Source: Acidiphilium sp. (GTDB lineage Bacteria > Pseudomonadota > Alphaproteobacteria > Acetobacterales > Acetobacteraceae). From it: a stretch of 34,693 nt of DNA. The stretch spans positions 1 through 34,693 of the forward strand of contig DAIDMG010000014.1 of NCBI GenBank assembly GCA_027449105.1. Direction: 5' to 3'. The translations under genes and the position numbers were made by a program. The notes beneath the pieces were generated by a model. That model saw nothing but the letters and a program-made list of their open reading frames with translations. It made no database searches and was not told the DNA's origin. Within the stretch, counting starts at the first letter, position 1. Every line of letters begins with the position of its first letter. Positions 1,366-18,583 of the stretch are shown in pieces.

Positions 1366-1366
1366 G

Positions 1367-2230: not shown

Positions 2231-2261
2231 AGCATACTCCCTGATTTGTCAAAGGAAAGAA

Positions 2262-2843
2262 CTAAGAATGATAGGGCAGATTCGATGTCAGCGTGGCCGG
2301 CGGCAGGCAGATGCCCTTATCGCTGCACGACTGCACCGTTACCGCCAGGATAAGGCTTCCGGTTGCCTTGAACCGATCCTGCGCCTGTCGTGAAAGCAGC
2401 GCCTTCAGGACTGTACCGTCATCGTAGACGCGGATCGCCGTGCCTTGCAGGACGATATGGCTGTTCCGCCCGCGCGGGTAAGCGATGTCGAGCGCTACTG
2501 GCTTGCCCGCGATAGACGCCTTCTCGATGGTCGGGATCAGAAAGGGCAGGGAGGCCGGGTTGGCGTTCACATGCCAGCCTTTCCGGATATCGAGGCGAAC
2601 CATCACGGCAGAAGACGCCGTCTGCCCACCGGCCGGTTCGATCCACGCGGTGATGCGGACTTTGTCGGCACTGCTCGGCATGTGAAAGCCACCGTTCCGG
2701 TCGCTGGATTTTGGGGCGGCGCCCACAGCGCCGGGTTGCGTTCGGGCTTCGCCGGAACGCGCACGCGAGGCATATCTGCCCCCCGCGACGATGGCGAAGA
2801 CGGCGACGATCGCCGCAGCCAAATGCCAATGTTTTCGTGTCAT
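2262..2843 (-). CDS. DsbD N-terminal (alpha) domain-like periplasmic protein
   Basis: A 193-aa protein with an N-terminal membrane or signal segment (residues 7-21) and an immunoglobulin-like DsbD-alpha domain. Recognition rests on WHVNANPASLPFLIPT (from 90) and the redox pair in SCSDKGICLPP (Cys173 and Cys179), which matches the N-terminal cysteine pair of DsbD. DsbD-alpha receives electrons from the membrane domain and passes them to periplasmic partners. In most DsbD proteins the domain is fused to the membrane part; here it is a separate gene overlapping the DsbD core gene by 4 nt. The two proteins together rebuild an alpha-beta-gamma DsbD in reverse genetic order. Confidence 0.85.
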   Translation of the reverse strand: MTRKHWHLAAAIVAVFAIVAGGRYASRARSGEARTQPGAVGAAPKSSDRNGGFHMPSSADKVRITAWIEPAGGQTASSAVMVRLDIRKGWHVNANPASLPFLIPTIEKASIAGKPVALDIAYPRGRNSHIVLQGTAIRVYDDGTVLKALLSRQAQDRFKATGSLILAVTVQSCSDKGICLPPATLTSNLPYHS

Positions 2844-4045: not shown

Positions 4046-4056
4046 GGTTTATTCCT

Positions 4057-5565
4057 CTAAGCCGGGACGCCGCGATAGCGGAATTCGGTCATCATGCCGG
4101 TCATCATGTGGTAAAGATTATGGCAGTGGAAGGCCCAGCGGCCGGGGTTGTCGGCATTGAAGGCGATACGCACGCTGCCCATCATCGGCGTGACCAGCAC
4201 GGTGTCGCGCACGGCACCCCGGATCGGCGTGCTGTTCACCGCGATCACTTGGAAAGCGTGGCCGTGCAGGTGCATCGGGTGCGCCATCATCGAATGATTG
4301 ACGAGGTCGATCTCGACCCTCTGACCGCGCTCCAGCATCAGCGGCGTGATATGCGGCCAGTATTCGCCGTTCAGCGACCAGGAATAGGGTTTCATGCCGC
4401 CGGAAAGTACGATGCGGTGGCGCAGATCGGCAGGACGTGGCGGCAGCGGCCGCATGGCCGTGAGACGTTCTTCCAGCGAATTGTCGACTGGCGGCGCCGG
4501 CTTCGCCGCGTCGGCGGCATGGAAGACCGAGGCGCTCTTCGTCGCCAGCACGATGCCGGTGCGGTGCCGCGTGCCCTCGACCTGAGCAAAAATCGGAAAG
4601 GCGCCGGTGGCCGGCAGGTCGAGCAATATGTCGAGCCGCTGGGCGATCGCCAGCGGGAAACGCCGTCCCGCGACGGAGCGTACCGGGTGCCCGTCGGTAG
4701 CGACGACGCGGCCGGAAAGCGCGCCGAGATCGATCCAGAACTGGCTGGCGGAGGCGCCGTTGATGATGCGCAGCCGTACCCGTCCCGAGCGTTCCACCCG
4801 CACGATCCCGGGATCGGCCAAGGTGCGGTCGTTGGCGAGGAAGGCATCGTAGTCGATGTCGTTCAGGTCGGCCGCCATGCCGGCGCCGTGCGCTATCGAC
4901 TGCGGCGTCATTGACGACATCGGCATGCCGCCCATGGACATGCCGGGCGCCGGTGCGTTGCGGGCCGGTGCCGGCACCGCCTCGGTCCTGCGTGCCATCG
5001 TATGCACTGCGGAGGGTGCGCCGCCGGTTAGCCGGGCGAGCAATTCGTCCGGCGCCGTGAAACTGAAATCGTCGAGCATCAGCACGACCTCCTGGCGATC
5101 CTCGCGCAACTCCGCCGTCGAGCGCACGATCAGCGGCGCGGTCATCAGGCTCTGCTCCTGCAGGCCCTGGTGCGAATGCATCCAGAACGTGCCGGGGATC
5201 GGCGCATAATCATAGCTTTCGACCACACCAGGGGACAGCGGCGGCGTCTGAGGCCAGGGAAACCCATCCTGCGTCCACGGTGGCAACTGACCGTGCCAGT
5301 GAATAATCGTTTTCTCGGCGGCGCGGTTGGCGAGATCGACCCGGAAGCGTTCGTCGGGGGCGAGCCGGATGCCACGCCGCCCCTGTCCGTCGAGCAGACG
5401 GAAAACCTTCCCGGCACGTCCGTTCACCTCCAGCACCGCAGTTTCGGCCGACAGCCGCTGCGCCGGGGGCGCTGCTTTCGCCTCGGCTGCGAAAGCAGCG
5501 GCGACACTCGCAGCCAGTGCGCCGTTGAAAAGTGTTCTGCGGGATATTGTTTCAAGCATTTTCAC
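4057..5565 (-). CDS. Multicopper oxidase, CopA/CueO-like, Tat-exported
   Basis: A 502-aa periplasmic copper oxidase. The N-terminus has a Tat-like signal (SRRTLFNG, then a hydrophobic Ala-rich stretch ending near AEAKAA). All four copper-ligand blocks are visible: HWHG (89-92), FWMHSHQG (127-134), HPMHLHGHAF, and WAFHCHNLYHMMTGMM (from 477) with the type-1 cysteine Cys481. A Met-rich insert (GMSMGGMPMSSM, roughly 207-218) resembles the methionine segments of CueO/CopA that bind Cu(I). It probably oxidises Cu(I) to less toxic Cu(II). It follows the copper chaperone gene by 48 bp and precedes dsbD, so copper control by the promoter upstream of copZ is likely. Confidence 0.92.
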   Translation of the reverse strand: MKMLETISRRTLFNGALAASVAAAFAAEAKAAPPAQRLSAETAVLEVNGRAGKVFRLLDGQGRRGIRLAPDERFRVDLANRAAEKTIIHWHGQLPPWTQDGFPWPQTPPLSPGVVESYDYAPIPGTFWMHSHQGLQEQSLMTAPLIVRSTAELREDRQEVVLMLDDFSFTAPDELLARLTGGAPSAVHTMARRTEAVPAPARNAPAPGMSMGGMPMSSMTPQSIAHGAGMAADLNDIDYDAFLANDRTLADPGIVRVERSGRVRLRIINGASASQFWIDLGALSGRVVATDGHPVRSVAGRRFPLAIAQRLDILLDLPATGAFPIFAQVEGTRHRTGIVLATKSASVFHAADAAKPAPPVDNSLEERLTAMRPLPPRPADLRHRIVLSGGMKPYSWSLNGEYWPHITPLMLERGQRVEIDLVNHSMMAHPMHLHGHAFQVIAVNSTPIRGAVRDTVLVTPMMGSVRIAFNADNPGRWAFHCHNLYHMMTGMMTEFRYRGVPA

Positions 5566-5613
5566 GGTTCCTGACGGCGCTTCGACGAGTGGAGCGGTGG
5601 CACGGCGGACGGT

Positions 5614-5826
5614 TCAGTGAACTTTGTAGCCTTCTTCCTCGATCGCCCGGACAATGGCGTTGCTTGCGGTCTGACCGTCGATTCCGGAAACTTTCACCAG
5701 CCCCTTCTCGAGATCGATCTCAACCTCTGCCTGTGGTGCAACGCCTCGCACCGCCCCAGTGACGGCGCGGACGCAGTGTCCACAAGTCATGCCTTCGACT
5801 TTCAGATTCAACTTCGCGACCTCCAT
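5614..5826 (-). CDS. copZ: CopZ-like copper chaperone (HMA domain)
   Basis: A 70-aa single heavy-metal-associated domain. The Cu(I) site is GMTCGHC (Cys15 and Cys18), and the rest matches the ferredoxin-like HMA fold (VEIDLEKGLVKVSG, then AIVRAIEEEGYKVH). The reading frame is open up to 5967, but the ATG at 5826 gives the expected length, and the upstream part contains the promoter, so this start was chosen. The product is cytosolic and likely hands Cu(I) to a P-type ATPase or regulator. It is the first gene of the copper operon. Confidence 0.9.
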   Translation of the reverse strand: MEVAKLNLKVEGMTCGHCVRAVTGAVRGVAPQAEVEIDLEKGLVKVSGIDGQTASNAIVRAIEEEGYKVH

Positions 5827-5864
5827 GATATTGGATCCCGGAACTGTCCGAAATCCAATGATCC

Positions 5865-5895
5865 TGCATAAAGATTGCCCTAATGGGAAGGTCAA
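5865..5895 (-). promoter_or_regulatory. CueR/MerR-type promoter upstream of copZ
   Basis: On the minus strand, TTGACC (5895-5890) and TATGCA (5870-5865) are separated by exactly 19 bp. The overlong spacer starts with TTCCC and carries an imperfect dyad, of which only the first half (ACCTTCC) matches the usual copper-regulator half-site well. A 19-20 bp spacer is the hallmark of promoters opened by MerR-family activators such as CueR. The start codon of copZ lies about 40 bp downstream. No cueR gene is visible in the window, so the regulator would act from elsewhere. Confidence 0.65.
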
Positions 5896-5934
5896 CTGCC
5901 GGCTGCGGGGTGAATCACGTTCAGCGGAGTCGTC

Positions 5935-6606
5935 ATGATCCATAACCTCACAACCGCGTTTCTTCACGCTCCGCTACTCGCTTTGTCGATGGGATGGGAT
6001 ATTCTTTGGGCGCTGATACTCGGCTTCATGCTGTCGGGCGCGGTTCAGGCGGTCGTCACCAAGGGCGAGATGGGCCGCCATTCGTGCTGCGGTCGCCTTC
6101 GTACCCCAGGATTGCATCCTCTTCCGCGACAGTATGCCAACAACATTAGGTTTTTCCGCTATGATGCGACCGGTGCCAAGGCCGATGATCACGCCGCGGA
6201 ACAGGCCGGCCTCGCACCGTTGATCGCCCGCCTGACCAACGGACTTCGCATCATTGTCGGTGAGCGTGGAATGCACTTGTCGGGCGGCGAGAAACAGCGC
6301 GTGGCGATCGTCCGCGCCATCCTTAAACGCCCGCGCATGTTCGTGCTCGATGAAGCCAACAGTGCCACTGAGCGAGCCATTCTGGAAAATCTGCGTGCTA
6401 CCATCGCTAGCGCCACCACCCTCGGTATTGCCCACCGGCTATCAACCATTTGCGACGCCAACGAAATCCTGATCATCGATCCTGGCCGCATCGTTGAGCG
6501 TGGCAATCACGCTACCTTGTTAGCGGGGAGCAGTCATTATGCGACTCTGTGGGCGGCTCAAATGTCCTTTCAAGACCGACTCCCCGTCGGCGGCGAGAAC
6601 CGATGA
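5935..6606 (+). pseudogene. Chimeric remnant: COG0701-type permease start fused to ABC-transporter ATPase end
   Basis: One open frame of 223 codons joins two unrelated genes. Residues about 1-48 (membrane segment GWDILWALILGFMLSGAVQAVVTKGEM) match the start of COG0701 permeases. From about 55 the frame carries the C-terminal half of an HMT1/Atm1-type ABC exporter: signature LSGGEKQRVAIVRAIL, Walker B MFVLDEA, H-loop IAHRLST, and DPGRIVERGNHATLL. The Walker A half is absent. Around 6078-6146 the true ABC frame is shifted: a different frame reads AIRAAVAFVPQDCILFRDS before rejoining at NNIRFFRYDA. The gene is therefore a deletion fusion plus a frameshift and is not expected to work. It diverges from copZ and is followed by a small overlapping frame and an IS element. 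Confidence 0.8.
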
Positions 6607-6740
6607 CTGTACTGAGAAGCCCAGTCATCGACGACGTCGGTTTGCACTCGGATCGCAATCATCGTGCCACGCCTATGCTGATTGCACGACAAGTGATTGA
6701 AGCCGGGGTAAAAACCATCGGTTTCCTTCCCTTGTCGTAA
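6603..6740 (+). CDS. Small hypothetical protein, 45 aa
   Basis: This short frame starts with an ATG that overlaps the stop of the ABC remnant by 4 nt, the usual spacing of coupled genes. It ends at a TAA that is itself the first bases of the IS target repeat. The product (begins MTVLRSPVIDDVG, ends VKTIGFLPLS) is not recognised. It may be a real tail gene of the old ABC operon or the start of a lost gene. Support is limited to spacing and frame. Confidence 0.3.
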   Translation: MTVLRSPVIDDVGLHSDRNHRATPMLIARQVIEAGVKTIGFLPLS

Positions 6741-6744
6741 GCTA

Positions 6745-7586
6745 CGGTCAGGACTCATTGATTGATCCAGAAGATAACGGTTGCGGCGATGACGATGGCG
6801 GACATGAATGTGTGAGCGCAGCGGTCGTAGCGCATGGCGATCCGGCGCCAGTCCTTGATCCGGCCGAACATGTTTTCGATCTTGTGGCGCTGGCGGTAGA
6901 GCGTGGCATCATAGGCGTGCTGGATTTTGCGGTTCTTGCGTGGCGGGATGCATGGGGTGATGCCCTTGCTGACCAGAGCGGAGCGAAACCGGTCACTGTC
7001 GTAGCCTCGGTCACCAAGCAATTCCTTGGCTGGTGGCAGGGCCCCAAACATCAGCCTCGCACCCTTGTGGTCGCTCATCTGCCCTTCCGAGAGCAGCATC
7101 ACGATAGGACGACCTTTGCCGTCACAAATCGCGTGCAGCTTGGAATTCAGGCCCCTTTGGTGCGCCCGATACGGCGGGGAACAGCCCTTTTTTAAGCAGG
7201 CTGGCAGCCGTGCGATGAGCTTTCAGGTGGGTGGCGTCGATCATGAGGCGAGCAGGCTTGCCGCCTTTGCCTGCCAGCGCCTCGAAAATCCGGTTGAACA
7301 CCCCCAGGCGGCTCCAGCGGATAAACCGGTTATACAACGTCTTATGCGGACCATAATCCGCCGGCGCATCCCGCCAGCGCAGCCCGTTGCGGAGAACAAA
7401 GATAATCCCACTGATCACCCGCCGATCATCAACCCTTGGAACCCCATGCGACAGCGGAAAATACCGCTCGATCCGCCGCACTGGCTCTCCGTCAACCAAA
7501 ACAAATCGCTCATGGCAGGCACCTCCCGCCATCTCCAGAATCACATCCCACCGCGTCGATACAAGAATTTTAATGGGTCCTGAACG
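6745..7586 (-). mobile_element. IS5-family (IS427-like) insertion sequence, 842 bp
   Basis: The element is bounded by imperfect inverted repeats: plus-strand CGGTCAGGACTCATTGA at 6745-6761 and, read on the minus strand from 7586, CGTTCAGGACCCATTAA (14 of 17 identical). Directly outside, TAAGCTA occurs on both sides (6738-6744 and 7587-7593), which looks like a target duplication. The length fits IS427-group elements. The single transposase gene on the minus strand is broken (separate entry). Typical IS427 duplications are 2-4 bp, so part of the 7-bp match may belong to the element or be chance. Confidence 0.85.
6755..7544 (-). pseudogene. IS5/IS427-type transposase, split into two frames
   Basis: The DDE transposase is spread over two frames. 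The first part (7544-7122) has the N-terminal region (RYFPLSHGVPRVDDRRVISGIIFVLRNGLRWRDAP) and the first Asp (MIDATHLKAHRTA). The second part (7102-6755) has the second Asp in LLGDRGYD and the Glu in RHKIENMFGRIKDWRR. Between them a third frame carries PRRIGRTKG, so two frame changes are needed: one at the AAAAAAG run near 7188-7194 and one at the AAAGGGG run near 7153-7159. One could be programmed slippage, as in some IS427 elements. Needing two suggests an inactive copy. Confidence 0.8.
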
Positions 7587-7736
7587 TAAGCTAAATCATC
7601 GTTCGATTCCATCAATTTGGGAGCCTCATGTTTCAGTGCTGACTGGCTGGCCAGGCCGCTCAGCTTGCGGTTCAAGGCTTCGCTATGGGCTAAAATCGTG
7701 CGATATAGGCGCTTATCGCGCATTTTGGAGGCGTTG

Positions 7737-8090
7737 ATGCTGACGACTCTTTTGACAGACATCCGCGAGAATGACTTCGTTTCGCCCCACCGGATGAGCG
7801 CGAGGATGTGCCTTCTGCTTGCGGAGTTGGCGCGACTGACGCACGTGCATTGCAACACGCTGACGAAGCAGCCCAATTCGGTGGTGGTTCAGAAGAGCCT
7901 TGAACCCGTCGTTCGCATACTCTTGGCCGCAGAAGAACTCACGGGCGATGCCGACAAAGCCATCTTGTGGTTTCGACATCAGTCGATCGCCGGCCATGAT
8001 GGTCAAACCGCCTTACAACTCGTCGAAGCCGGACATGCCCAAGCCGTGTCTGACCATCTCAATGACCTCCGCAACGGCCTTTACGCTTGA
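7737..8090 (+). CDS. Xre/MbcA/ParS-type antitoxin with DUF2384 toxin-binding domain
   Basis: A 117-aa protein whose C-terminal half (ILLAAEELTGDADKAILWFRHQSIAGHDGQTALQLVEAGHAQAVSDHLNDLRNGLYA) fits the DUF2384 toxin-binding domain of RES-associated antitoxins. The N-terminal half looks like a degenerate helix-turn-helix (LAELARLTHVHCNTL). A longer frame opens at 7617, but the ATG at 7737 has GGAG 6 nt upstream and gives the normal length, so it was chosen. These antitoxins bind and block an NAD-degrading RES toxin and repress their own operon. The partner toxin gene starts 9 bp after the stop codon but is broken. Confidence 0.85.
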   Translation: MLTTLLTDIRENDFVSPHRMSARMCLLLAELARLTHVHCNTLTKQPNSVVVQKSLEPVVRILLAAEELTGDADKAILWFRHQSIAGHDGQTALQLVEAGHAQAVSDHLNDLRNGLYA

Positions 8091-8099
8091 GTTGGCAGC

Positions 8100-8340
8100 T
8101 TGAAACTGCCGGCAGCACTGCCTCAACGGGATTTTCTAGCGAACGTTTGGCGCCGCAGTGGTCTTATTATCCATTATCAGGAGCGGGTGCCGCCCGCGTC
8201 GGCGGCTGCCCGGAAGACCCGGGCAACCCGCGCTCTACCTCGCCGAAAGTCATGCGGTCGCGATCACCGAATATCAACAGGATCTTCCAAGGCCGGGGAC
8301 ATTGGCGAGTTACGAAGTCCGGGTTTGTCAGATTCTTTGA
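8100..8340 (+). pseudogene. RES-domain toxin remnant, frameshifted and truncated
   Basis: Pieces of a RES NAD+ phosphorylase occur in three successive frames. A TTG-started beginning (KLPAALPQRDFLANV) is followed by APQWSYYPLSGAGAARVGG in a second frame and PALYLAESHAVAITEYQQDLPRPGTLASYEVRVCQIL in a third, which stops at 8340. The conserved RES order (PLSGAGAARVGG, PALYLA, then EY and LPRPGTL) is clear, but at least two frameshifts interrupt it and the C-terminal part is missing. An IS21 istB fragment follows at once. The antitoxin upstream is intact, as expected if loss of the toxin was harmless. Confidence 0.8.
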
Positions 8341-8349
8341 TATCAGCAA

Positions 8350-8456
8350 TCAAGCGGCATGCTGCCGATCCTTGGTGATATGGATCTTGCCGGTTCCGGA
8401 CCCGCCAACGAGCACAACATTGCCGGTGGCTCGATGAAGTCGCAAAGCTGGAGTTG
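8350..8456 (-). pseudogene. IS21-type istB ATPase remnant
   Basis: On the minus strand a short piece reads ATGNVVLVGGSGTGKIHI, the Walker A region of IstB helper ATPases (usually VVLVGGTGTGKTHLA). Just before it, in a neighbouring frame, QLQLCDF fits the preceding IstB segment. The Thr of the usual GKTH is Ile here, and a stop follows within 12 codons. Only about 100 bp remain, and no istA or IS21 terminal repeat was recognised. It marks an old insertion at the junction between the RES remnant and tnsE. Confidence 0.6.
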
Positions 8457-8563
8457 CCCGGCCCTTATTTGTTCCGGCTGAGGCGCGCACAGCCATGCTG
8501 GCCTTGTTTGGGCGCACTTTCGTTATCTGAATTGGGCTGAATCGGATAGAAAAAATTGCGTAA

Positions 8564-10204
8564 TCAGGTAATGATTTCCTCCTTTAGCCGCATTACCCAC
8601 CCCAGCACATACTGCTCATCCTCTCTCCGCTCCGTCATCCGTACCAGTTTTGGCAAGCGTTTGACAAAAACGTGGCGGGGTAACCGATGCTCATTGAAAA
8701 TATCCCAGTGTCCGTGTCGATCCACCATGGTGGCCAGCAGCAGGCGAACATGACCGGCGATTTCCGTCATCGGGGTGGCGGCGTCGTAGCGCAGTAGCAA
8801 TCCCGACAATCCTCCGGACAGGCCTGTGTGGTCCACGTCCAGCAGGACGCGCGGCAGGCGTTTGGGCGAGGTAAATACTGCTATCAGACAGGCCCGGCGG
8901 CGTCGGCCGACGAATGAAATCGCCCTCCCGGATTTCAGCGGCACCAGCCGCAAGGTCAAGGTTACGTCCGGCGTTGACTTCTCGATTCGCCACAGCACCA
9001 GTTCCAGCAAACTCAAATCGCCGATATGATCGGCCCCTACCTGATCCAGCGTGGAGAATTCGACGGGTTGAAGGCCGCCGGACAGTGCGGGTTCGCCGAC
9101 GCTGACCAGTTTGCGGACCAGCGTCGATGGCAAATCGGAATTGATGGGATGCCCGGCATCCGAACGAGTCTTGCGGCGCGACGCAGGGTCTTTTCCCTCA
9201 GTAACTGGTCTAGGCGGCAGCAGATGCTTGGTAACGCGGGATTTATTCACGAAACAACCGCGTTTTCCGCCCAGGAATATGACATCCTGATTGGCATTGC
9301 GTTGGCTATCCGCTTCGTCTTCCACCACATGCTCGAGCTCGTGCGCTGGGCGCCTTTCGCCGCGCTCGTGGCCATCAGAGACCGTGTGCTTACCGTCGGA
9401 GATGTCGGGGCTAAACGATTCGTATTCCGATGGATGGGACCAAACTATGTTGAGCGCCGGCTGTTTGCGTCCCGATAGAGATAAAATTTCCAGCACCAGC
9501 CATTGGCGGTTTCTCTTAACGCCGCGAAATTCCAGAAGACAGTCCTGGATCGGCGGCGGATCGAAGGTCAGGATGCGTGAGGTGCTGCGCCGCCGCACGC
9601 TATCCCAGGCTTCGCGGCCATCGGGATGCACGCTCAACCAAGCGAATTCGCGGATGAAATCCTCGCTCAGTAGGCGGCGGGGCATGTCAGATGTAAAGTG
9701 AATCTCGATTTCCCAATGTAATCCTGGAACCGGCGACACCGCCAACGTCTGTAGGCCCGAGGGAGTTAGCAGCGTTTGGGCCAGGGTACGGCTGTGCAGG
9801 AACAGGAAGCGGATCAGTTCAACGGCGGGAATCAGGATGGTCCAGTCGTTGGATTGGTAACGCAAGATCCGCTGTCCGCCACCTCGGTGACCGCCGAGAT
9901 AATATAATTCGGGGGAAATGGTTGGAATGACATCAATTTCTTCGGCGCCGGACAGATCGGACAGGTTGACCCGACCGTTCTTGCCGGAGGCCCTAGTACT
10001 CTGTAGTTCGCCTTGTGATACTACCAGCCCCGGCATCAGAAATGGAAGGTACGAAAAGGAGATTTTCTCTTGAAAATAGACTTGGTCGGCGCAGTTGCGG
10101 AAGCGTACGCGTAAGTATCTGTTGCGGTTTGAGTCTTGAAAATGCCCGCTCAGCCACATCAATTCGATATCATTACGATAATGAGTTAAGGAATTGATAA
10201 TCAT
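8564..10204 (-). CDS. tnsE: Transposition protein TnsE
   Basis: A 546-aa protein, close to the 538 aa of Tn7 TnsE. It matches the family in several places: VELIRFLFLHSRTL in the N-terminal half, the block LTFDPPPIQDCLLEFRG near the middle, a charged low-complexity linker (about 270-350), and GEPALSGG leading into the C-terminal DNA/clamp-binding domain. In Tn7, TnsE steers insertion to replicating DNA and mobile plasmids through the sliding clamp, as an alternative to TnsD. Its ATG overlaps the tnsD stop by 4 nt, so it is the fifth gene of the operon. The match is by recognised motifs and position; an alignment was not run. Confidence 0.88.
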   Translation of the reverse strand: MIINSLTHYRNDIELMWLSGHFQDSNRNRYLRVRFRNCADQVYFQEKISFSYLPFLMPGLVVSQGELQSTRASGKNGRVNLSDLSGAEEIDVIPTISPELYYLGGHRGGGQRILRYQSNDWTILIPAVELIRFLFLHSRTLAQTLLTPSGLQTLAVSPVPGLHWEIEIHFTSDMPRRLLSEDFIREFAWLSVHPDGREAWDSVRRRSTSRILTFDPPPIQDCLLEFRGVKRNRQWLVLEILSLSGRKQPALNIVWSHPSEYESFSPDISDGKHTVSDGHERGERRPAHELEHVVEDEADSQRNANQDVIFLGGKRGCFVNKSRVTKHLLPPRPVTEGKDPASRRKTRSDAGHPINSDLPSTLVRKLVSVGEPALSGGLQPVEFSTLDQVGADHIGDLSLLELVLWRIEKSTPDVTLTLRLVPLKSGRAISFVGRRRRACLIAVFTSPKRLPRVLLDVDHTGLSGGLSGLLLRYDAATPMTEIAGHVRLLLATMVDRHGHWDIFNEHRLPRHVFVKRLPKLVRMTERREDEQYVLGWVMRLKEEIIT

Positions 10205-12015
10205 GAGGCGGTATCCTCCGCCGCCCGCAAGATCGCTTCCACCGGGGCAACGCAGCGTTTCGGCAGTCCGGCCAACCGGCGCAGTCGCCAGACCTGCACC
10301 GGCAAATCGCGCCGGGTCAATTCATCTGTAGCCCAAGCGATGCGGCGGCATTGGAAAGCTTCCAGCGGTTCGGCAAGGAGGTTCAGGGCAGCAGCACTGT
10401 GTGGCAGCTTTTTCAGCCGTTTATCCAGCCAGTCCGACCGCCCCAAGCCGCGTGCCAGGGCAGCACGGGTTATTGATATCGGTGGGGATATCGCCTGCAG
10501 CAGGGCAGCAGAGGCATGCAGATCCCGTACTGTGGCGGTATCCACGGCGGCCCAGTGGCGGCGGGGCTTGCCGCCGGAGCGGCGCAGCGGATGAGGCGGT
10601 TGCGCCTCAAGCCATGCTTGATCATTCCGATAGAGCCACGCAAACTCTGCAGGCAGATGCTGGCGAAGTTGCTTGCGGTTCAGGGCCGGATTGGCCCGGT
10701 GGGTAGCAAGCCAGCGGGCGCGGACGGTTTCACGGTCGACGGGCGGCTGTCTCAAGCGTTCGGCGACAGGTTTCCAAGAGGTTGCGATGGCGAATTTGCC
10801 AACGTAGCGCAACACCGTCTTGGCATCCACATGCAAAGCTTTGGCTGTACCGCGCAGGCTGGTTTCGTTGGCAACCAGTACCCGCAGACGGGCTTCAAAC
10901 AGGGGGCCAAAATCGAGGATACGAAGGCGGGAGGCTGGTTCCGTGGCCATGCTGAAGGCATACCCACAGGCGCAGCGAAACGCGCCGATGGTTTTGCCGC
11001 CCTCTCGGTGCGTGGTGCAGTCGGCGATTACCGACTGCCGGTAATGTTCTGCCAGGGGATTGCGGCAGGGCCAAGGCCCGAGGCCGAAAGGTTGTGGGCG
11101 GGGATTGCTTAAAGGCAACGCCTCCAGCAGCAGGCGCAGCAGCAGATGGTGCAGCGGGGCGATGGCTTTGCGGTGTTTGCGACCCATATCCTCGAGCCAC
11201 GCATCAGGGGCGGCGTTAGGGAGGATGCTCAGCACTGGATCGAAATGGGCCAGATAGGCGCGCTGCAGGGCGTTCTGGTCGATGCGGGATGTTCCTTTGC
11301 CCAATCCCCGTGCCGCTAAGGCGTCACGATAATGGCCGCCCCAATAGGTCAATGGCTGTGCATCCGGCGGTGTTGACAGCAAAGCGGTGCTGGCCCTGCT
11401 GATATTCCACAGCAGCTTCATTGCTTCAGGTTTGGCTGCCCAGGCAGGCGGCGATGGAGCGGCCGGACAGTTGTTCTCATCGGCTGCTACGAAATTGTGC
11501 TGCCCTTGCTCTGCGGGGCGCACCAAACTGTCGGTCACTGGAACGCTGTGCTGGAGGCAGACCAGAACGCCGGGAAGCTGGAACTCCCGCCGCCAGTATA
11601 GTTCTCCATGCTGGGCCAGCATCTCGGCCCGGCAGGCGGGGCAATAGCGCAGGGCCACAGGCAATCGCACAGTGCCCGCCGCCAACCCGAGGCGGACATG
11701 TAGGGATTCGGCGGCGCCCCGGCTCATCGTCGTCATTGCCCAAGCGCGGACTGAGGCAGGCTGGAAGGCGGTCAGATAGGGAAACAGGGTCGTGTCCATC
11801 GCCAACCGATCCTCCGTCAGGCCGCGCTTGGGTGGAAGGTTGGTTGCCAATCGATGCAGATTGGTTTGCAGAAACGGGTGGGCGTAAACGGTACGGCGAC
11901 CAAAGGCCTCTTCAAGCATTTGCTTAGGGCTAAGAATGCCACCGTGGCGGCACAAACGCGCCAACAGGCTATAAAGCAGTTCGTCAGGCCGCAGGGCCGG
12001 AAGATAGGCCAACAT
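10201..12015 (-). CDS. tnsD: TnsD/TniQ-family target-selection protein
   Basis: A 604-aa TniQ-family protein, longer than Tn7 TnsD (508 aa). The N-terminus (LPALRPDELLYSLLARLCRHGG) is the typical TniQ opening. A CCCH zinc finger is visible: YCPAC (Cys125 and Cys128), then ELYWRREFQLPGVLVCLQH (Cys153 and His156). The C-terminal half has repeated helix-turn-helix-like stretches (LRGTAKALHVDAKTVLRYVGKFA and later TRAALARGLGRSDWLDKRLKKLP). It should bind the 3' end of glmS and recruit TnsC. The position of the transposon right after glmS supports a glmS-specific TnsD. It starts 9 bp after tnsC. Confidence 0.92.
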   Translation of the reverse strand: MLAYLPALRPDELLYSLLARLCRHGGILSPKQMLEEAFGRRTVYAHPFLQTNLHRLATNLPPKRGLTEDRLAMDTTLFPYLTAFQPASVRAWAMTTMSRGAAESLHVRLGLAAGTVRLPVALRYCPACRAEMLAQHGELYWRREFQLPGVLVCLQHSVPVTDSLVRPAEQGQHNFVAADENNCPAAPSPPAWAAKPEAMKLLWNISRASTALLSTPPDAQPLTYWGGHYRDALAARGLGKGTSRIDQNALQRAYLAHFDPVLSILPNAAPDAWLEDMGRKHRKAIAPLHHLLLRLLLEALPLSNPRPQPFGLGPWPCRNPLAEHYRQSVIADCTTHREGGKTIGAFRCACGYAFSMATEPASRLRILDFGPLFEARLRVLVANETSLRGTAKALHVDAKTVLRYVGKFAIATSWKPVAERLRQPPVDRETVRARWLATHRANPALNRKQLRQHLPAEFAWLYRNDQAWLEAQPPHPLRRSGGKPRRHWAAVDTATVRDLHASAALLQAISPPISITRAALARGLGRSDWLDKRLKKLPHSAAALNLLAEPLEAFQCRRIAWATDELTRRDLPVQVWRLRRLAGLPKRCVAPVEAILRAAEDTAS

Positions 12016-12024
12016 TGCCCGATC

Positions 12025-13629
12025 CTATCGAGCAATGCCTAGGAGCGGTGGCGCGACAATCCCCGCTTCACGCAAGGCGGCATGAGCGGTCTTGCCCGCC
12101 GCTTTTCCGGTTGCCACAATTTCAGCAAGCTGAGAAATCGGCTGTTCCCGGCGCGCCGCGGGTTTGGGCTTGCGCGAGTTCGGCCGCGGGCCGTCCCGGT
12201 TCAGTTCGGCTGAGACATGGCCAACCAACTCCAGCAGTGATGCGCCGGGATGTTGGGCCAATATCCGCGCCGCACTGACTTCGGCAATGTCGGCGGCAAG
12301 TCCCAACTCCTGAAGTTTTTCGACTAAAGTAGAGGAGGCGGGCTCGGCCTGGCGCGGTATGAACGTTTTCACTACGGGCAGCGGCGCGGGGGCAAGACGC
12401 AGTTGAGCAGCGTTCATAATCTGCTGCACATGCGGCTCCAGCGGGCGCAGATCATCATATTTGGCGACCTTACGGCGGTCGCCCGACTTCAGAGCCCCCA
12501 TCATTGGCTCGATTATCTTGAAATGTTCGGCGGCCACCTGCCGCAACAACCCGGCGTCCATCACTTCGGGGCGCTTACGGGTTACACCAAGTTCTATGAC
12601 CCGCAATTGTCCGAGCATGAAGAGTTTGACTAATACATCAATGATGCCTTGCGATTCTTCGTACAGCACTTGCCGGATATCGTCGGTCAGTGGCGTTTCC
12701 TCACGGGTCCACTGATACCTCCAGAGGAACTCGACGAAATGGTTCCACACCTGCCCGGGTTGTAGCCGCTCCCAAATGTCTGAGCCCAGGCCGTTGGCCC
12801 GTCGGGCTTGCCGGAAGTCGCCCTGGAGCACTTCCAGCGCGCCCATGGTGCCAATCACCACAACGGGGATGCCGATGACGTTGATCAGTGTCACCAGAAA
12901 ATTTAGTATGGCTGCCGGTCCGACGCCTTTCGCCAAGGTCAAATGCTGAATTTCATCGACGATCAGCACTCCCAAGGCATGACGGTTGGCGATTTGCGCC
13001 ATCTGGGTCATCATCAGATCCAAAGAACTACGGCTGCCCCCATGATTAGCAAGGAAGCGAGTTCCCAGAATCAGATCCATCTGCTGAAAGAAACTGAGGC
13101 AGAGTTGCTTCGGTGACCCTTGAAACGGGCAGTCCAGCTTCAGCCAAGTCACCTGTTGCATGCTGAATGGTTCGTCATGCTCGATGACTTGGGGATAATA
13201 CTCCAAAACGCGTTCGACGCCGGTGCTTTTTCCGGCTCCCGATGCGCCTAGCAGGGCGAAACCGGCAGCCGAACTGCGTACTGGATTGCGCACCGCCTGT
13301 AAGTCGCGAGCGACGATCCGCTCATGCCCGTCGCGAAGGCGCCGGATATAGTCTGTGGTCAAGGGATTGCGGTTGACGTAGCCCTGCCTCAGCAAAGCGG
13401 AAAATGCTGCCTCCAAGCGCAAATGGTGTTCCAGCGGCTCGAAACAACGGCCTAAGCGGTAGAGGCATTGCACGCGCATATGTGCAGGATAGTTGCGATC
13501 CGAGGGCGAGAAATCTGGTGGGTCGGAGAGAAAAGCCCAGGCCTCGCGCATGGACATCTGTGCCGGAAGGCGGTTAATGAAGGGGTTGTCACGGTATTCG
13601 GGCAATAGCAATTCGGATGATTTGTTCAC
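12025..13629 (-). CDS. tnsC: TnsC AAA+ transposition regulator
   Basis: A 534-aa ATPase (Tn7 TnsC is 555 aa). Walker A is GASGAGKS (128-135) and Walker B is VLIVDEIQHL with Asp225 and Glu226; a sensor-1-like segment VVVIGTMGALEVL follows. TnsC forms ATP-dependent rings on target DNA, links TnsD or TnsE to the TnsAB transposase and mediates target immunity. The start is GTG, overlapping the tnsB stop by 4 nt. The C-terminal 130 residues are Pro/Ala/Arg-rich and less conserved, a region that in Tn7 contacts TnsA and TnsB. Confidence 0.93.
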   Translation of the reverse strand: MNKSSELLLPEYRDNPFINRLPAQMSMREAWAFLSDPPDFSPSDRNYPAHMRVQCLYRLGRCFEPLEHHLRLEAAFSALLRQGYVNRNPLTTDYIRRLRDGHERIVARDLQAVRNPVRSSAAGFALLGASGAGKSTGVERVLEYYPQVIEHDEPFSMQQVTWLKLDCPFQGSPKQLCLSFFQQMDLILGTRFLANHGGSRSSLDLMMTQMAQIANRHALGVLIVDEIQHLTLAKGVGPAAILNFLVTLINVIGIPVVVIGTMGALEVLQGDFRQARRANGLGSDIWERLQPGQVWNHFVEFLWRYQWTREETPLTDDIRQVLYEESQGIIDVLVKLFMLGQLRVIELGVTRKRPEVMDAGLLRQVAAEHFKIIEPMMGALKSGDRRKVAKYDDLRPLEPHVQQIMNAAQLRLAPAPLPVVKTFIPRQAEPASSTLVEKLQELGLAADIAEVSAARILAQHPGASLLELVGHVSAELNRDGPRPNSRKPKPAARREQPISQLAEIVATGKAAGKTAHAALREAGIVAPPLLGIAR

Positions 13630-15776
13630 GATTCATCCTCATCGTCCTCGCGAAAACGGCGCAGTAATTCCGTGATGTCGGGCAAATTGTAATCATCTGG
13701 TGGAAGGTTGCCGGGAAAGGGCACCACATCAGCCTTTTCTTGCGGGGGCCGATCTACCCGCACGGCATCGCGGCGCTGCAAATCCTGCCGTTCTTCCCGC
13801 CGGTTGGCACGGATGTCGGCAGTTCGTTGGCGCTGGGACAGGTCTGAAGTGCCATGAGCCATGGCCTGAGCCTCCTTTACCACTGATTGGATTTGATCAA
13901 TCAGCGCTACCCGTCCTTGAGTCTGCTGTGGACGACCGGCGGCGACCAAGTCGCGGACTTCCTGGCGCAGTTGATCAATTTCCCATAGCGAACGGCCCTG
14001 ATGCTCGCGGCTGCGGTCGGTCAGGGCGCAGGGGATGAAGCGGGGTTGGCCGGGTTGCCCTTGCAGCCAGAGGTCGTCCATGCAGCGGGGATCGTAGGAA
14101 ACCCTCACCTTCCAATTGCTGCGTTGGCGGGCTTTATCGAACCAGTGTTTCTCGATAGCCAAAGGGCAGGAATAATAGCAGCCGAAGAAGCGGATGCCGT
14201 GTTTGGTGACGGTGGCTTCGTCGGAGGGCAGCAGGCTGAGGCGCACCAGCTCCGCCGGATAGGTCCGCAAGCGCCCACTGCGGCAGACGATGCCCCAATC
14301 CCAAACCTCTACCGGAATTGGCTTCACGCCGTCGCGGATCATGTCCGGATCCAGGGGATAGCCCTTCAGCACATGGGTGTTGTTGTAGGCCAGAACACAG
14401 AAGATCAGGATGCGCGTAAACTGATCAATATCCAGCGTTGCGTCCAAGCGGTAGTCGTTTCCGCCTCGCTGCCGGTAGTCTTCCTGAATATACCCCGGAG
14501 TGTAGGCCTTGAAGCGGGCGGGCAGCAGGCGGAATTGCTGTTCCACCAACCCCTTCCAATCGGCCCGGTAGGGGGCGGTGTTTTCCACATGCACCGCGAA
14601 ATTATGGATCAGGGTTTCCACCATCCGTCCGGCAAGCTCGCCCCGGTCGCCCAACAGACGTTCCGGCATTCCGACGCTCGGCCAATCTTCCTGAATAATA
14701 TCAATGCCGAATCGGCGGCAATAGTCCGTCTTGTCAAGGACGGCGTTGCTCAATGCTTCCATCGCCCCCACCCAGGACGGGCCCTCGAATCCGACATGAA
14801 TGCCGGTGATCATGTGGGTGAAGACGTCAATCACGACATAGAGAACCGGTCGCCCGACGACGCGGTCGCGATAATAGCGACTGACCAAATAGATGTCGGC
14901 GATGGTGGCGTCGATCTGATAGCGGGCTCCGGGGCCGTTGACCTGGCCGGTGGAGGTGCCCAACAGCCCCCGCATGTCCTTGTCATAAACGCGCGGCGTG
15001 CGGCGCCGCCGGGCGATAGCGAAGATGTCGTTGTCTTTTTCGTACCAATAACGGAACTGCCGCTGTGAGGGCGCACCAGCTCGAATCACCAGTTCCTGCC
15101 GTCCGTTCACCGGACTGATTCTCGAGTCTGAAAAGAACTGCCGCAGCAGGGCATGATAGCATTCGGCCAAATCGAACACTGGCTGGGAGGCATAAAAGCG
15201 GGTGACGGCAGTGCGGAACAGGCTACGTATCTCGACCGTGACGTTGAGCGAAGCGATTTCTGGATTTTTGGGTGGTCGTCCGCGCGGTTTATCCGATGCC
15301 GCTTTGTCCTTTCCGCGCCCGCCGCACTTGGCATAGTCGGGCAGCAAAGTATTGCGGGTCATGCCGCGCTGCCAGTAGCGGCGTAGCAGTCGATAAAGGA
15401 CAATATGGCTTTCGCCCCGCTGTTTCATTAGGGCGGCCACGATTTTACCCCGGCGATCCAGGTCGAAGATGGCCGGTTGTTGTTCCAGCAGTGGGGCGAT
15501 GCGGTCCCAGTTCCTATCCCGTCGTGCTCGGTGCTTTGGGGAGATAGAGTCTTCATTGGCGGGTAAGGAAAACGGATCATCAGAGAGTAATTTTAGCACT
15601 CCCCCCTCTGCTAGGGCTTCCAGCACGGCATGAGTTCGGAATAATGGCAAGGCTTTATCTGTTCGTATATCAATCAGAATGTAGCCTGACCGCACAGTTT
15701 CGACCCATAGCACCCGCTCGATGCGATCCTCTTCGGAAAAAGCCACAAGCTGGTTAACGGCTAAGAGCTTCATCAT
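13626..15776 (-). CDS. tnsB: TnsB DDE transposase
   Basis: A 716-aa DDE recombinase (Tn7 TnsB is 702 aa). Counted from the chosen Met, the catalytic acids are Asp289 in YQIDATIADIYL, Asp377 in ERLLGDRGEL and Glu412 in WKGLVEQQFRLLP. Upstream lie DNA-binding helices (ALMKQRGESHIVLYRLLRRYWQRG). It binds the terminal repeats and cuts and joins the 3' ends. The frame is open to 15905, but that would overlap tnsA by more than 130 bp; the ATG at 15776 overlaps the tnsA stop as ATGA and gives a normal N-terminus, so it was chosen. Confidence 0.94.
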   Translation of the reverse strand: MMKLLAVNQLVAFSEEDRIERVLWVETVRSGYILIDIRTDKALPLFRTHAVLEALAEGGVLKLLSDDPFSLPANEDSISPKHRARRDRNWDRIAPLLEQQPAIFDLDRRGKIVAALMKQRGESHIVLYRLLRRYWQRGMTRNTLLPDYAKCGGRGKDKAASDKPRGRPPKNPEIASLNVTVEIRSLFRTAVTRFYASQPVFDLAECYHALLRQFFSDSRISPVNGRQELVIRAGAPSQRQFRYWYEKDNDIFAIARRRRTPRVYDKDMRGLLGTSTGQVNGPGARYQIDATIADIYLVSRYYRDRVVGRPVLYVVIDVFTHMITGIHVGFEGPSWVGAMEALSNAVLDKTDYCRRFGIDIIQEDWPSVGMPERLLGDRGELAGRMVETLIHNFAVHVENTAPYRADWKGLVEQQFRLLPARFKAYTPGYIQEDYRQRGGNDYRLDATLDIDQFTRILIFCVLAYNNTHVLKGYPLDPDMIRDGVKPIPVEVWDWGIVCRSGRLRTYPAELVRLSLLPSDEATVTKHGIRFFGCYYSCPLAIEKHWFDKARQRSNWKVRVSYDPRCMDDLWLQGQPGQPRFIPCALTDRSREHQGRSLWEIDQLRQEVRDLVAAGRPQQTQGRVALIDQIQSVVKEAQAMAHGTSDLSQRQRTADIRANRREERQDLQRRDAVRVDRPPQEKADVVPFPGNLPPDDYNLPDITELLRRFREDDEDES

Positions 15777-16600
15777 GCCCGATCCCGCCGCTGTCGCGGC
15801 CTGTTGACCGACATAGCCGCCAACGGCAAGCGGTCGTTCAGCATGACCTGTTCCATGTCGCAGACCACCATCTGGGTTGCTAACAGATGGCGCAATATGG
15901 ACCAAGTGGCCCCTTGGGGCAGGTTATGCTGCTGATCCATCGCGGCCCTGACAGCACCAATGGACTGGTGCGGACGAGTGGCAATTTCGTCAAGGAGCAC
16001 CGGGATCAATGCCAATGCTCGCTCATCAAGACCTTGCTGGGAATAGAAGCCATGCACCAAGATGATGTTGTCGACCAGTCGCCGTGGCAGTTCGGCGCGG
16101 GTGACAATGCTCCAGGGAACATTGCGCGCCTGCCAGTAGCGCCATTCGATCTCTAGTTTGTGCAGCGTGCGCGGCTTTTCCAAATCTTCGGCGGTCTTGA
16201 CGGCGTAAGCCAAGGTTTCCAACCCGTTGGCCCCGCGTCGGTCCAGCATTAGATCTGTGGTCATCACCATTGGCTGGGGAGTGCGCGGCGCTTGCGGGTG
16301 GCGGATGTTCAATCGTTCGGCAATGTCCTGCGTGGCGTCAATATCCAGCGGGTACTGTTCGCGCAGATCGGCGGTAGTCGTTTGCCAGTCCAGTAGCAGG
16401 AACAAATCATGTTCCAGATTGGACAGGAAATCATGCTGTCGACCGGTGGTGATCCCCATCAAGCGGTGGCTGAGTCCGTGCGACGGTACGTCCCGAACAG
16501 TTAGCCAAGGTTTGTAATCGCCGCCGTCTCCTTGCCCGCGCCCTTCCTTCTCGAATTTTGCAGCTCGCTTTTCATCGATTGTATACCGACGACGGGCCAT
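15773..16600 (-). CDS. tnsA: TnsA endonuclease
   Basis: A 275-aa restriction-like endonuclease (Tn7 TnsA is 273 aa). The opening KEGRGQGDGGDYKPWLTVRDVPSHG is diagnostic. Catalytic residues are visible in SNLEHDLF (Glu63), TTDLMLD (Asp116) and AYAVKTAEDL (Lys135), counted from the chosen start. TnsA cuts the 5' ends of the transposon so that it moves by cut-and-paste. A start eight codons upstream (16624) is possible, but AAGGAGG sits 6 nt before the ATG at 16600, so that start was chosen. It is the first gene of the operon, 135 bp from the transposon terminus. Confidence 0.95.
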   Translation of the reverse strand: MARRRYTIDEKRAAKFEKEGRGQGDGGDYKPWLTVRDVPSHGLSHRLMGITTGRQHDFLSNLEHDLFLLLDWQTTTADLREQYPLDIDATQDIAERLNIRHPQAPRTPQPMVMTTDLMLDRRGANGLETLAYAVKTAEDLEKPRTLHKLEIEWRYWQARNVPWSIVTRAELPRRLVDNIILVHGFYSQQGLDERALALIPVLLDEIATRPHQSIGAVRAAMDQQHNLPQGATWSILRHLLATQMVVCDMEQVMLNDRLPLAAMSVNRPRQRRDRA

Positions 16601-16667
16601 CCGAACCCTCCTTGGGGCGGGCATTCATAGAATCTAATGATCTCGCTAGCGTAAGCGGGAGAAGAAG

Positions 16668-16696
16668 TTTGTACAAACTTTTTTGTCTATGTTCAA
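16668..16696 (-). promoter_or_regulatory. Possible tns operon promoter within the TnsB sites
   Basis: On the minus strand TTGAAC (16696-16691) and TACAAA (16673-16668) are 17 bp apart, an acceptable sigma-70 pair about 60 bp upstream of the tnsA start. Both hexamers lie inside the TnsB repeats, so TnsB binding would block it. This is a pattern match only; another -10-like TATGAA lies nearer tnsA. Confidence 0.35.
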
Positions 16697-16735
16697 ACTT
16701 TTTTGTCCATGAACAAACTTTTTTGTCGACAAACA
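16668..16735 (-). repeat. Tn7-like right end: TGT terminus plus three tandem TnsB-type sites
   Basis: Reading from 16735 on the minus strand: the terminal octamer TGTTTGTC, then three contiguous 20-bp repeats at 16727-16708, 16707-16688 and 16687-16668. All three share GACAAAAAAGTTTG and differ only in the last six bases (TTCATG, AACATA, TACAAA). An 8-bp terminus before the first GACAAA repeat is the same layout as in Tn7. The third repeat is part of a perfect 16-bp palindrome, AAGTTTGTACAAACTT (16665-16680). Confidence 0.88.
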
Positions 16736-16800
16736 CAACCACATGTGTGAGCGCTTGGATTATTCAACTGTCACCGATTTTGCGAGGTTGCGTGGCTGAT
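16736..16800 (-). other. attTn7-type target site at the 3' end of glmS
   Basis: The five bases next to the transposon terminus (16736-16740, CAACC on the plus strand) are the expected 5-bp target duplication. Their centre lies 22 bp from the last base of the glmS stop codon (16760), almost exactly the Tn7 distance. The glmS 3' coding end (protein ...PRNLAKSVTVE) is the conserved segment that TnsD reads. The partner duplication at the left end is outside the window. Confidence 0.75.
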
Positions 16801-18583
16801 CGACGTCGGTCCCTTTTAACACTGCAACCTGATATGCAAGCATTTGGACGGGAATGGTATACAGGAGTGGTGCTACGAAAGAGGAACAGTCCGGCAGAAT
16901 TACGGCATCGCTGGCGATTGAGGCCAGTCTTGCTGCGCCCCGTGCGTCGCTAAACACGATAATCTTGCCTCCTCGGGCTGATGCCTCCTGAAGGTTGGAC
17001 GCGGTCTTCTCGAAGAGTGGACCAGACGGGATAACAGCGATGACCGGAACGGCCGGATCGATCAACGCGATCGGCCCGTGTTTCATCTCACCTGCGGGAT
17101 ATCCTTCAGCGTGAATATAGCTAAGTTCCTTCAGCTTCAACGCACCCTCGAGCGCCACCGGCATCAGCGCCCCGCGCCCGAAAAACAGGACATCGCGGCT
17201 GTCCGCAATCGTGGCGGCAAGTTTGTGGATCGCGTCGCTGTCGGAAAGAATCTGCGCGGCCTTTGCAGGAACTTCCATCAAGCTAGCTACAAGGGCAGCG
17301 ATCGCCATGTCGTCCTGCACACCGCGGGCGCGTGCGACGCTAAGGCAAAGGCCGGCGAGAACGGTTAGTTGTGCGGTCAACGCCTTCGTGCTGGCGACCG
17401 AGATTTCAGGACCCGCAATTGTTTCGAGGACGAAGTCGCTCTCGCGCGCCATGGTGCTTTCGGGTACGTTGACCACTGACAGTACTCGGCACCCTTGTGT
17501 ACGCATGTAGCGAAGCGCTGCCATTGTGTCCGCGGTTTCTCCAGATTGGCTGATCACAAGACCAAGCGTTCCTGCGTCGATAGGCGGAGTGCGGTAGCGG
17601 AACTCGCTGGCCACATCTGCATCAACGGGAATCCGTGCAATCTCTTCAAGCCAATAGCGGCCGATCAGGCCGGCGTAGAACGCTGACCCGCAGGCGGAAA
17701 TGGTAATGCGCCGGATTGTCCCGAGGTCGACGTTCAGCGTCGGTAGGACCGGCATCCGCGTGGCTGGATCAATCATTCGTTTCAGTGTGTCGCCGATAAC
17801 GACAGGATGTTCATGCATTTCCTTTTCCATGAAATGCCGGAAATTTCCTTTGCCGATTGCAGCTCCCGTAAGCTGAGTCAGCTTGATCTTCCGTTCTACC
17901 GGTCGGTTATGTGCGTCAAAGAATAGGACTTCATTGGGCTTGACCATGACCCAGTCGCCATCATCAAGATACGCAATCCTGCGCGTGAGAGGCGCCAAGG
18001 CGAGGGCGTCCGAGCCAAGGTACATCTCTTCTTCACCGAAGCCGACCGCGAGTGGTGCGCCCCGTTGGGCACCGATAATGAGGTTGGGATGCCCTGAGAA
18101 AATCAGTGCAACGGCGAATGCGCCCTCCAGCCTGCCGAACGCCGTCGATGCTGCTGTAGGCGGCGCCATACCCTGCGAGAGGTACAAGTCGACCAATTGC
18201 GCAATCGTTTCGGTGTCGGTTTCGCTCGCGAAAACCTGCCCCGCAGCCTCAAGTTCTCCGCGCAGTTCCGCATGATTCTCAATAATTCCGTTATGGACAA
18301 CAGCAACGCGGGGAGTGCCGTGCGGGTGAGCATTGTTTTCGGTGGGTGCCCCGTGCGTCGCCCAGCGTGTGTGGCCGATACCCGTTGTACCTGCCAGCGG
18401 GCGCACGCCAAGGTTGGCAGCCAGTCGGGTCAGTTTGCCTTCGGCGCGTCGCCGTTCGATAGAGCCGGCAACCAGCGTGGCGATCCCGGCGCTATCGTAA
18501 CCACGATAGGCAAGGCGACCAAGCGCCTCAAGCAGAAGCGGGGCCGCCTCCTGAGTTCCGACGACGCCTACAATGCCGCACAT
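16760..18583 (-). CDS. glmS: Glutamine--fructose-6-phosphate aminotransferase
   Basis: A 607-aa protein making glucosamine-6-phosphate from fructose-6-phosphate and glutamine, the first step to UDP-GlcNAc for peptidoglycan and lipopolysaccharide. Cys2 (MCGIVGVVG) is the glutaminase nucleophile; GHTRWATHG follows in the N-terminal amidotransferase domain. Two SIS sugar-isomerase domains are seen (SACGSAFYAG and SQSGETADT; then FFGRGALMPVALEGALKLKE), and the C-terminus is the invariant PRNLAKSVTVE. The ATG overlaps the glmU stop by 1 nt, so the two genes are co-transcribed. Readthrough would enter the tns operon, since no hairpin followed by a T-run is seen after the stop. Confidence 0.98.
   Translation of the reverse strand: MCGIVGVVGTQEAAPLLLEALGRLAYRGYDSAGIATLVAGSIERRRAEGKLTRLAANLGVRPLAGTTGIGHTRWATHGAPTENNAHPHGTPRVAVVHNGIIENHAELRGELEAAGQVFASETDTETIAQLVDLYLSQGMAPPTAASTAFGRLEGAFAVALIFSGHPNLIIGAQRGAPLAVGFGEEEMYLGSDALALAPLTRRIAYLDDGDWVMVKPNEVLFFDAHNRPVERKIKLTQLTGAAIGKGNFRHFMEKEMHEHPVVIGDTLKRMIDPATRMPVLPTLNVDLGTIRRITISACGSAFYAGLIGRYWLEEIARIPVDADVASEFRYRTPPIDAGTLGLVISQSGETADTMAALRYMRTQGCRVLSVVNVPESTMARESDFVLETIAGPEISVASTKALTAQLTVLAGLCLSVARARGVQDDMAIAALVASLMEVPAKAAQILSDSDAIHKLAATIADSRDVLFFGRGALMPVALEGALKLKELSYIHAEGYPAGEMKHGPIALIDPAVPVIAVIPSGPLFEKTASNLQEASARGGKIIVFSDARGAARLASIASDAVILPDCSSFVAPLLYTIPVQMLAYQVAVLKGTDVDQPRNLAKSVTVE

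Follow-up and report, generated by a model that had tools for sequence, protein, structure and literature searches.

A probable canonical-type Tn7 transposon at the glmS site of an Acidiphilium metagenome-assembled genome and its identical tract in a second species-level genome

Background

Insertion just past glmS is a known property of Tn7, as a passage of one report records (PMC2918618), and a section of a recent review describes the complete TnsABCDE set as usual among glmS-targeting elements (PMC11406308). For TnsE beyond the prototypic Tn7, the same section of that review states that mechanistic information is lacking. Two surveys, in the passages relevant here, employ the Pfam profile TnsE_C (PF18623) as their TnsE profile (PMC10293859, PMC8649781); the former passage adds further TnsE seeds, while the latter remarks that the spread of tnsE is perhaps underestimated owing to weak conservation. 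Here we describe a tnsABCDE locus beside glmS in a stretch of Acidiphilium sp. DNA (assembly GCA_027449105.1, contig DAIDMG010000014.1; 34,693 nucleotides, hereafter the window). The window is the whole of contig C14 of a draft metagenome-assembled genome (MAG), G000, of 2.77 Mb in 388 contigs with a completeness of 88%. The locus is very probably a canonical-type Tn7 transposon (element A) residing in attTn7 of an alphaproteobacterium, and it appears to have entered two species-level relatives recently.

Results and discussion

A complete tns set with a Tn7-type right end at glmS

The five genes follow the Tn7 order tnsA-tnsB-tnsC-tnsD-tnsE on the minus strand beside glmS, within 8564-16735 (Table 1); all five open reading frames (ORFs) are open, and neighbouring genes overlap or lie at most 10 bp apart, an operon-like spacing judged from their coordinates. 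Four of the products match solved Tn7 proteins by sequence, with E values of 8e-43 for TnsA, 6.5e-125 for TnsB, 8e-93 for TnsC and 8e-26 for TnsD. Since the next-best match of TnsB, to the TnsB of Tn6677, is far weaker (E 2e-17), the window TnsB groups with Tn7 itself. TnsA residues E71, D124 and K143, the TnsB DDE residues (D332, D420, E455), the Walker A and B motifs of TnsC (at 128 and 221) and the TnsD zinc finger (C125/C128/C153/H156) all align with their Tn7 counterparts. The locus thus possesses the components that characterize Tn7, namely a heteromeric transposase (TnsA with TnsB), an AAA+ regulator (TnsC) and a TnsD with TniQ/TnsD domains and a finger, and the complete set with intact catalytic motifs announced in the preliminary description is upheld. 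Because homology is seen only from residue 9 of TnsA and from residue 45-50 of TnsB, the listed ORF starts of these two genes are probably too far upstream, and the likely starts are those given in Table 1.

The length of TnsD, 604 residues against 508 in Tn7, had been put at about 100 residues in excess. That difference stands (approximately 96 extra residues around 325-420, in which a CxCG motif and a helix-turn-helix-like stretch can be seen by eye), but its interpretation as something peculiar to this protein does not. The window TnsD spans the entire PF15978 profile (1-355, E 1e-72), whereas the best stretch covers only the C-terminal part of the profile for Tn7 TnsD (232-351, E 3e-25) and for the TnsD of G337, a genome from the same class that consists of one contig (235-355); the long TnsD is therefore a complete PF15978 domain and that of Tn7 a short form. 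Proteins aligning over at least 90% of the window TnsD occur on other plasmids, for example that of Staphylococcus sp. 693-2 (99%).

Position 16735 marks the transposon tip, in agreement with the boundary drawn beforehand. The tip lies at the expected distance of about 20-25 nt from the glmS stop in the window, in the second genome described below (25 nt) and in G337 (24 nt). A left end is available from contig C67 of that second genome only; its tip and the first 22 bp of the right tip are identical at 20 of 22 positions, and the TnsB-type sites begin at offsets 10, 76 and 131 in the left end and at 10, 30 and 50 in the right. Asymmetric ends, repeated TnsB sites and TGT...ACA tips are thus all present. 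In the second genome TTTGT stands outside both element tips, on unlinked contigs, a possible 5-bp target duplication. A search of viral contigs for the right-end repeat returned no match.

Beyond glmS lie a glmU-like gene (18583-19896) and then the suf operon. The ten best matches of GlmS among plasmid records all belong to alphaproteobacteria, with Azospirillum at the top (60%), which bears out the alphaproteobacterial host proposed earlier.

By homology with Tn7, TnsA and TnsB would cut the element out and TnsB would join it to the target, TnsC would license that target, TnsD would bind the conserved 3' end of glmS and set the right tip 24-25 nt from the stop codon, and TnsE would open another pathway that leads into DNA undergoing replication or conjugation. 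The sequences themselves show the gene set, the right end, its location and the identities reported here.

Table 1. Coordinates of the features of the window and of the tract shared with a second genome
Feature	Position	Strand	Remarks
DsbD transmembrane and N-terminal proteins, ORF 1367-2230, ResA/TlpA-type protein	484..4045	-	probable cargo
Identical tract, G000 versus G001 (HSP2.bin25)	2073..16734	.	0 differences in 14,662 bp
Multicopper oxidase (4057-5565) and HMA-domain protein (5614-5967)	4057..5967	-	probable copper cargo
ABC-transporter ATPase fragment	5935..6606	+	
IS5/IS4-type transposase fragments	6748..7583	-	
Xre/MbcA/ParS-type antitoxin-like ORF	7617..8090	+	
tnsE	8564..10204	-	546-aa product; assigned by sequence to a divergent branch missed by PF18623
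tnsD	10201..12015	-	long form: TniQ and complete PF15978
tnsC	12025..13629	-	
tnsB	13626..15905	-	likely start near 15776
tnsA	15773..16624	-	likely start 16600
Three TnsB-type end repeats, GACAAAAAAGTTTGNWCA, 20 bp spacing	16670..16727	-	0.08 chance matches expected
Right tip, TGTTTGTCGACAAAAAAG reading inward	16735	-	24 nt past glmS stop; identity with G001 ends here
Presumed 5-bp target duplication, glmS side, GGTTG	16736..16740	-	inferred; left partner not in assembly
glmS	16760..18583	-	TIGR01135 E 1e-225; 3' end is the expected target-recognition site

An identical tract in a second genome

Scanning genome contigs with the window TnsE yielded a single locus (L009), in the MAG HSP2.bin25, a member of the same genus that is treated as a separate species and whose record appears in our samples both as G001 and as G009. 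From within the cargo up to the right tip the two genomes are identical, a tract for which roughly 730 differences would be expected at a divergence of 5%. Outside it the divergence is that of the hosts: 80 of 1,970 positions differ on the left side (103-2072), 156 of 3,469 from the tip to 20203 and 575 of 11,452 from the tip to 28187 (95.0% identity), with 95.6% identity over 6.9 kb of unlinked DNA. The right junctions also differ, reading ...ATGTGGTTG before the tip in the window and ...ATGTGTTTGT in HSP2.bin25; the spacing from the glmS stop is 24 nt, with GGTTG at the tip, in the former and 25 nt, with TTTGT at the tip, in the latter. Because the element DNA is identical while the host DNA past the tip is 5% different and the junctions are distinct, the same copy most likely reached these two species-level relatives very recently through separate insertions, as judged from the sequences. 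The idea that the element may still be mobile has thereby gained strength.

Several observations weigh against the picture of a canonical, recently inserted Tn7. In TnsA, A141 occupies the position of Tn7 Q130, so the glutamine is not kept. The window itself yielded no left end, the best scores away from the right-end sites being 15 (beside them) and 11, against 22-28 for true sites; nor was one found in the remainder of G000, either with the end repeat at up to three mismatches or with the left-end DNA of HSP2.bin25, and the target duplication of the G000 copy is for that reason unproven. Both genomes are MAGs, and the contig title in HSP2.bin25 gives a coverage of 2.57. Finally, the identity ends on the left at 2072, inside a cargo ORF (1367-2230) and at no transposon end, so that a further event beyond simple transposition is needed; recombination of the cargo with a related older copper cluster is one unproven example.

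This left edge is also what lends some plausibility to spread of the 14.66 kb by homologous recombination among relatives already carrying the element, with no new transposition, as 103-2072 diverges like host DNA. We consider this unlikely, however, since the right edge of identity coincides with the transposon tip and the junctions differ, and a chance crossover at precisely that point is improbable. Less probable still is an artefact of assembly or binning that joined the transposon of one population to the flanks of another. In its favour, HSP2.bin25 is a MAG with the stated contig coverage, and G000 is a draft of 388 contigs, two of which (C42 and C75) begin inside tnsE genes, a sign of an assembly broken at repeats; yet each contig has its own junction sequence, with host-level divergence that stays consistent over 11.5 kb of right flank and about 2 kb of left flank. 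Recent, separate insertion of one element thus remains the preferred reading.

Distribution among relatives

We examined the 3' side of glmS in a sample of 13 genomes of the same genus, G000 included. Element A is present in two (G000, G009) and a different Tn7-like end, that of element B (see below), in one (G003), while other Tn7-like repeats could be discerned by eye at glmS in G005 and G008, the former also with a 38-residue TnsA remnant. The site looks empty in five (G004, G006, G007, G012, G013), with one convergent gene approximately 80 nt past the glmS stop; other sequence follows glmS in G010 and G011, and G002 is cut off by a contig edge. The gene after glmS in the empty relatives (Bax-inhibitor-like by reading, without a profile test) was tried as a guide to the distal junction and rejected: in G000, G001 and G003 it stands on other contigs with other neighbours. 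A decayed copy shared by all close relatives, the finding that had been named as fatal to a mobile element, was not seen, tns DNA occurring in just two of these 13 genomes.

At the family level, full-length tns DNA is confined to G000 and G009 among 397 genomes, 17 others giving only matches of at most 83 bp. At the level of the class, TnsE was detected by protein comparison in three of 385 genomes, G000 included, in a loose first look that may miss distant TnsE; the match in G335 is short and has an internal stop. A megablast search with 2073-16735 matched 28 plasmid records, none over 80% of the query, and among the best 20 of these 28 the match falls in the IS5 stretch for 19 and in a tnsB stretch for the remaining one, from Azospirillum argentinense. 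In A. argentinense, tblastn matches to TnsE and to the N-terminal half of TnsD also lie side by side. In another genome (G037, contig C76, 9242-9364) a second stretch resembling the last 41 codons of glmS (78%), which may be a duplicate of the target end, lies some 0.8 kb beyond the gene.

Apparent stacking at one glmS site

On contig C67 of HSP2.bin25 the left end, with its three spread sites, runs into TTTGT, a pentamer that also precedes the right tip at glmS in that genome. The end of another element begins directly after TTTGT, and the 110 bp across this junction share 84% identity with the end located directly at glmS in G003. This sequence evidence suggests that element A inserted ahead of an older Tn7-like element, B, within one attTn7. 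Counting against this arrangement, the two contigs concerned (C11 and C67) are unjoined in the assembly, and a five-base match by itself would arise by chance once in 1,024 cases. Neither C67 nor the G003 contig yielded relatives of the window Tns proteins, so B may be a remnant. In G003 (C3, L058, approximately 3038-5498), the element-B end at glmS is followed by genes that by eye are cation-efflux-like and metal-regulator-like. We do not claim novelty for tandem Tn7-like insertions, our literature search having been limited.

A divergent TnsE

The 546-residue product of the fifth gene is the least conventional part of the element. Alone, it has no match by sequence in Pfam, NCBIfam or the PDB, and PF18623 does not detect it (no family at E up to 10), a result that tells against a Tn7-type TnsE, although this profile serves to detect TnsE more than to define it. 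As a control, the profile matched five of six comparison TnsE proteins with E values no higher than 3e-31 and missed only that of Azospirillum oryzae; PF18623 also misses the C-terminal TnsE pieces encoded in contigs C42 and C75. Searches with tblastn connect the window TnsE to TnsE annotated on plasmids, with E values from 1e-7 to 1e-4.

We give most weight to a comparison of profiles. One profile comprised four rows (the window TnsE and those of Azospirillum, C42 and C75) and the other five, from Acidithiobacillus caldus, Shewanella, Salmonella, G337 and plasmid R721, whose copy of the element we take to be Tn7. They matched over 489 columns (probability 99.4, E 6e-22), whereas the four-row profile gave a probability of 0.2 and E 0.33 against an alignment of five TnsD/TniQ proteins; these E values come from single comparisons of shallow alignments. 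Within the alignment, the window TnsE is 17-21% identical to the Tn7-group proteins. The four-row profile, which lacks R721/Tn7, found nothing in the PDB at E up to 10. A nine-row alignment did match the Tn7 TnsE there and was discounted, as R721/Tn7 TnsE is among its rows; a structure predicted from the single sequence (mean predicted local distance difference test score, pLDDT, 30.5) was left unused.

Because of the match over 489 columns and the clean TnsD/TniQ control, the product is, on sequence grounds, a TnsE of a divergent branch. The failure of profile searches to place it, named in advance as grounds for abandoning the assignment, did occur with Pfam and NCBIfam and is overruled by the comparison of profiles. 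It is very improbable that the protein is instead a different or degenerate one in the TnsE position that does not work as TnsE, for although the sequence databases and the four-row PDB search are silent and identity to the Tn7 group is low, the profile match is accompanied by an operon position as in Tn7, an intact ORF and 33% identity to the gene in the TnsE position of the Azospirillum element.

More tentatively, and with doubt outweighing conviction, we propose an alphaproteobacterial Tn7 branch whose TnsE lies beyond the survey profile, so that TnsE-bearing elements are undercounted. In this proposal the branch is moving between species now and shares a single glmS site with older Tn7-like elements in stacked order, and the replication target recognized by its TnsE may be somewhat different. 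No claim is made that the survey of PMC10293859 missed this branch, given the extra seeds used there.

Cargo and other Tn7-like loci

To the left of tnsE the element carries probable copper and redox cargo, including thioredoxin-like proteins. DNA matches of 69-74% to the multicopper oxidase region occur in several genomes of the genus. In G008 this region lies about 1.9 Mb from glmS on the same contig, a distance that fits the copper cluster at glmS being carried cargo.

Other Tn7-like loci occur in G000. Contig C42 (L055, 1-17471) begins inside another tnsE gene, whose product is 33% identical to the window TnsE. Next come homologs of SspA, SspB and SspC and a DndB-like protein, which places defence genes alongside this second TnsE; a second TnsE like this one was not found in G001. 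Contig C75 (L056, 1-10080) begins inside a third (34% identical), after which come a 403-residue protein with partial matches to Argonaute profiles (E 1e-14), an ATPase-like protein and genes for type III restriction-modification. The tnsB genes of these two elements were not found in the G000 bin. Contig C64 (L057, 1-6674) contains a set of TnsB/TniA-type, TniB and TniQ genes from another Tn7-like family beside an IS66 transposase.

Comparison with known systems

The element shares with the R721 copy of Tn7 the gene order, the catalytic residues and the type of end (the R721 repeats having been read by eye). It differs in sequence, with identities of 38% for TnsA, 34% for TnsB, 41% for TnsC, 29-33% in two blocks of TnsD and 26% over part of TnsE, and also in the TnsD longer by about 96 residues and the metal/redox cargo. 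The closest relative found is an element on the 728-kb plasmid unnamed3 of Azospirillum oryzae (NZ_CP054617; L088, 4220-11605), identical at 43% of TnsA, 55% of TnsB, 49% of TnsC and 33% of TnsE positions; its TnsE, like that of the window, escapes PF18623, but a short TniQ of 311 residues takes the place of the full TnsD. The element of G337 similarly has tnsABCDE directly at glmS (recognized there from its 3' sequence) with the right tip 24 nt past the stop, and differs in a TnsE with the standard PF18623 domain and a short TnsD of 522 residues. Type I-B1 CRISPR-associated transposons that possess a glmS-targeting TnsD, as described in part of the review (PMC11406308), share this mode of targeting; in contrast to them, the window element has a TnsE, and no cas gene was seen among the proteins tested, no search having been aimed at cas.

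Retention of TnsE at glmS, which the preliminary description had set against the many Tn7-like elements that have lost or replaced tnsE, cannot be regarded as unusual, being the rule for glmS-targeting elements in the section of the review cited above (PMC11406308). Of interest to specialists are the identical copy with different junctions in two species-level genomes and a TnsE outside the Pfam profile: a complete Tn7-type element with probable copper and redox cargo, apparently recent in two species-level relatives, and a concrete example of a TnsE that the profile misses. The pair of hosts with identical element DNA offers a good start for testing TnsD spacing and the function of TnsE beyond Tn7. 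Measured against the known systems, the element is a new and well-formed Tn7 family member of a kind already known.

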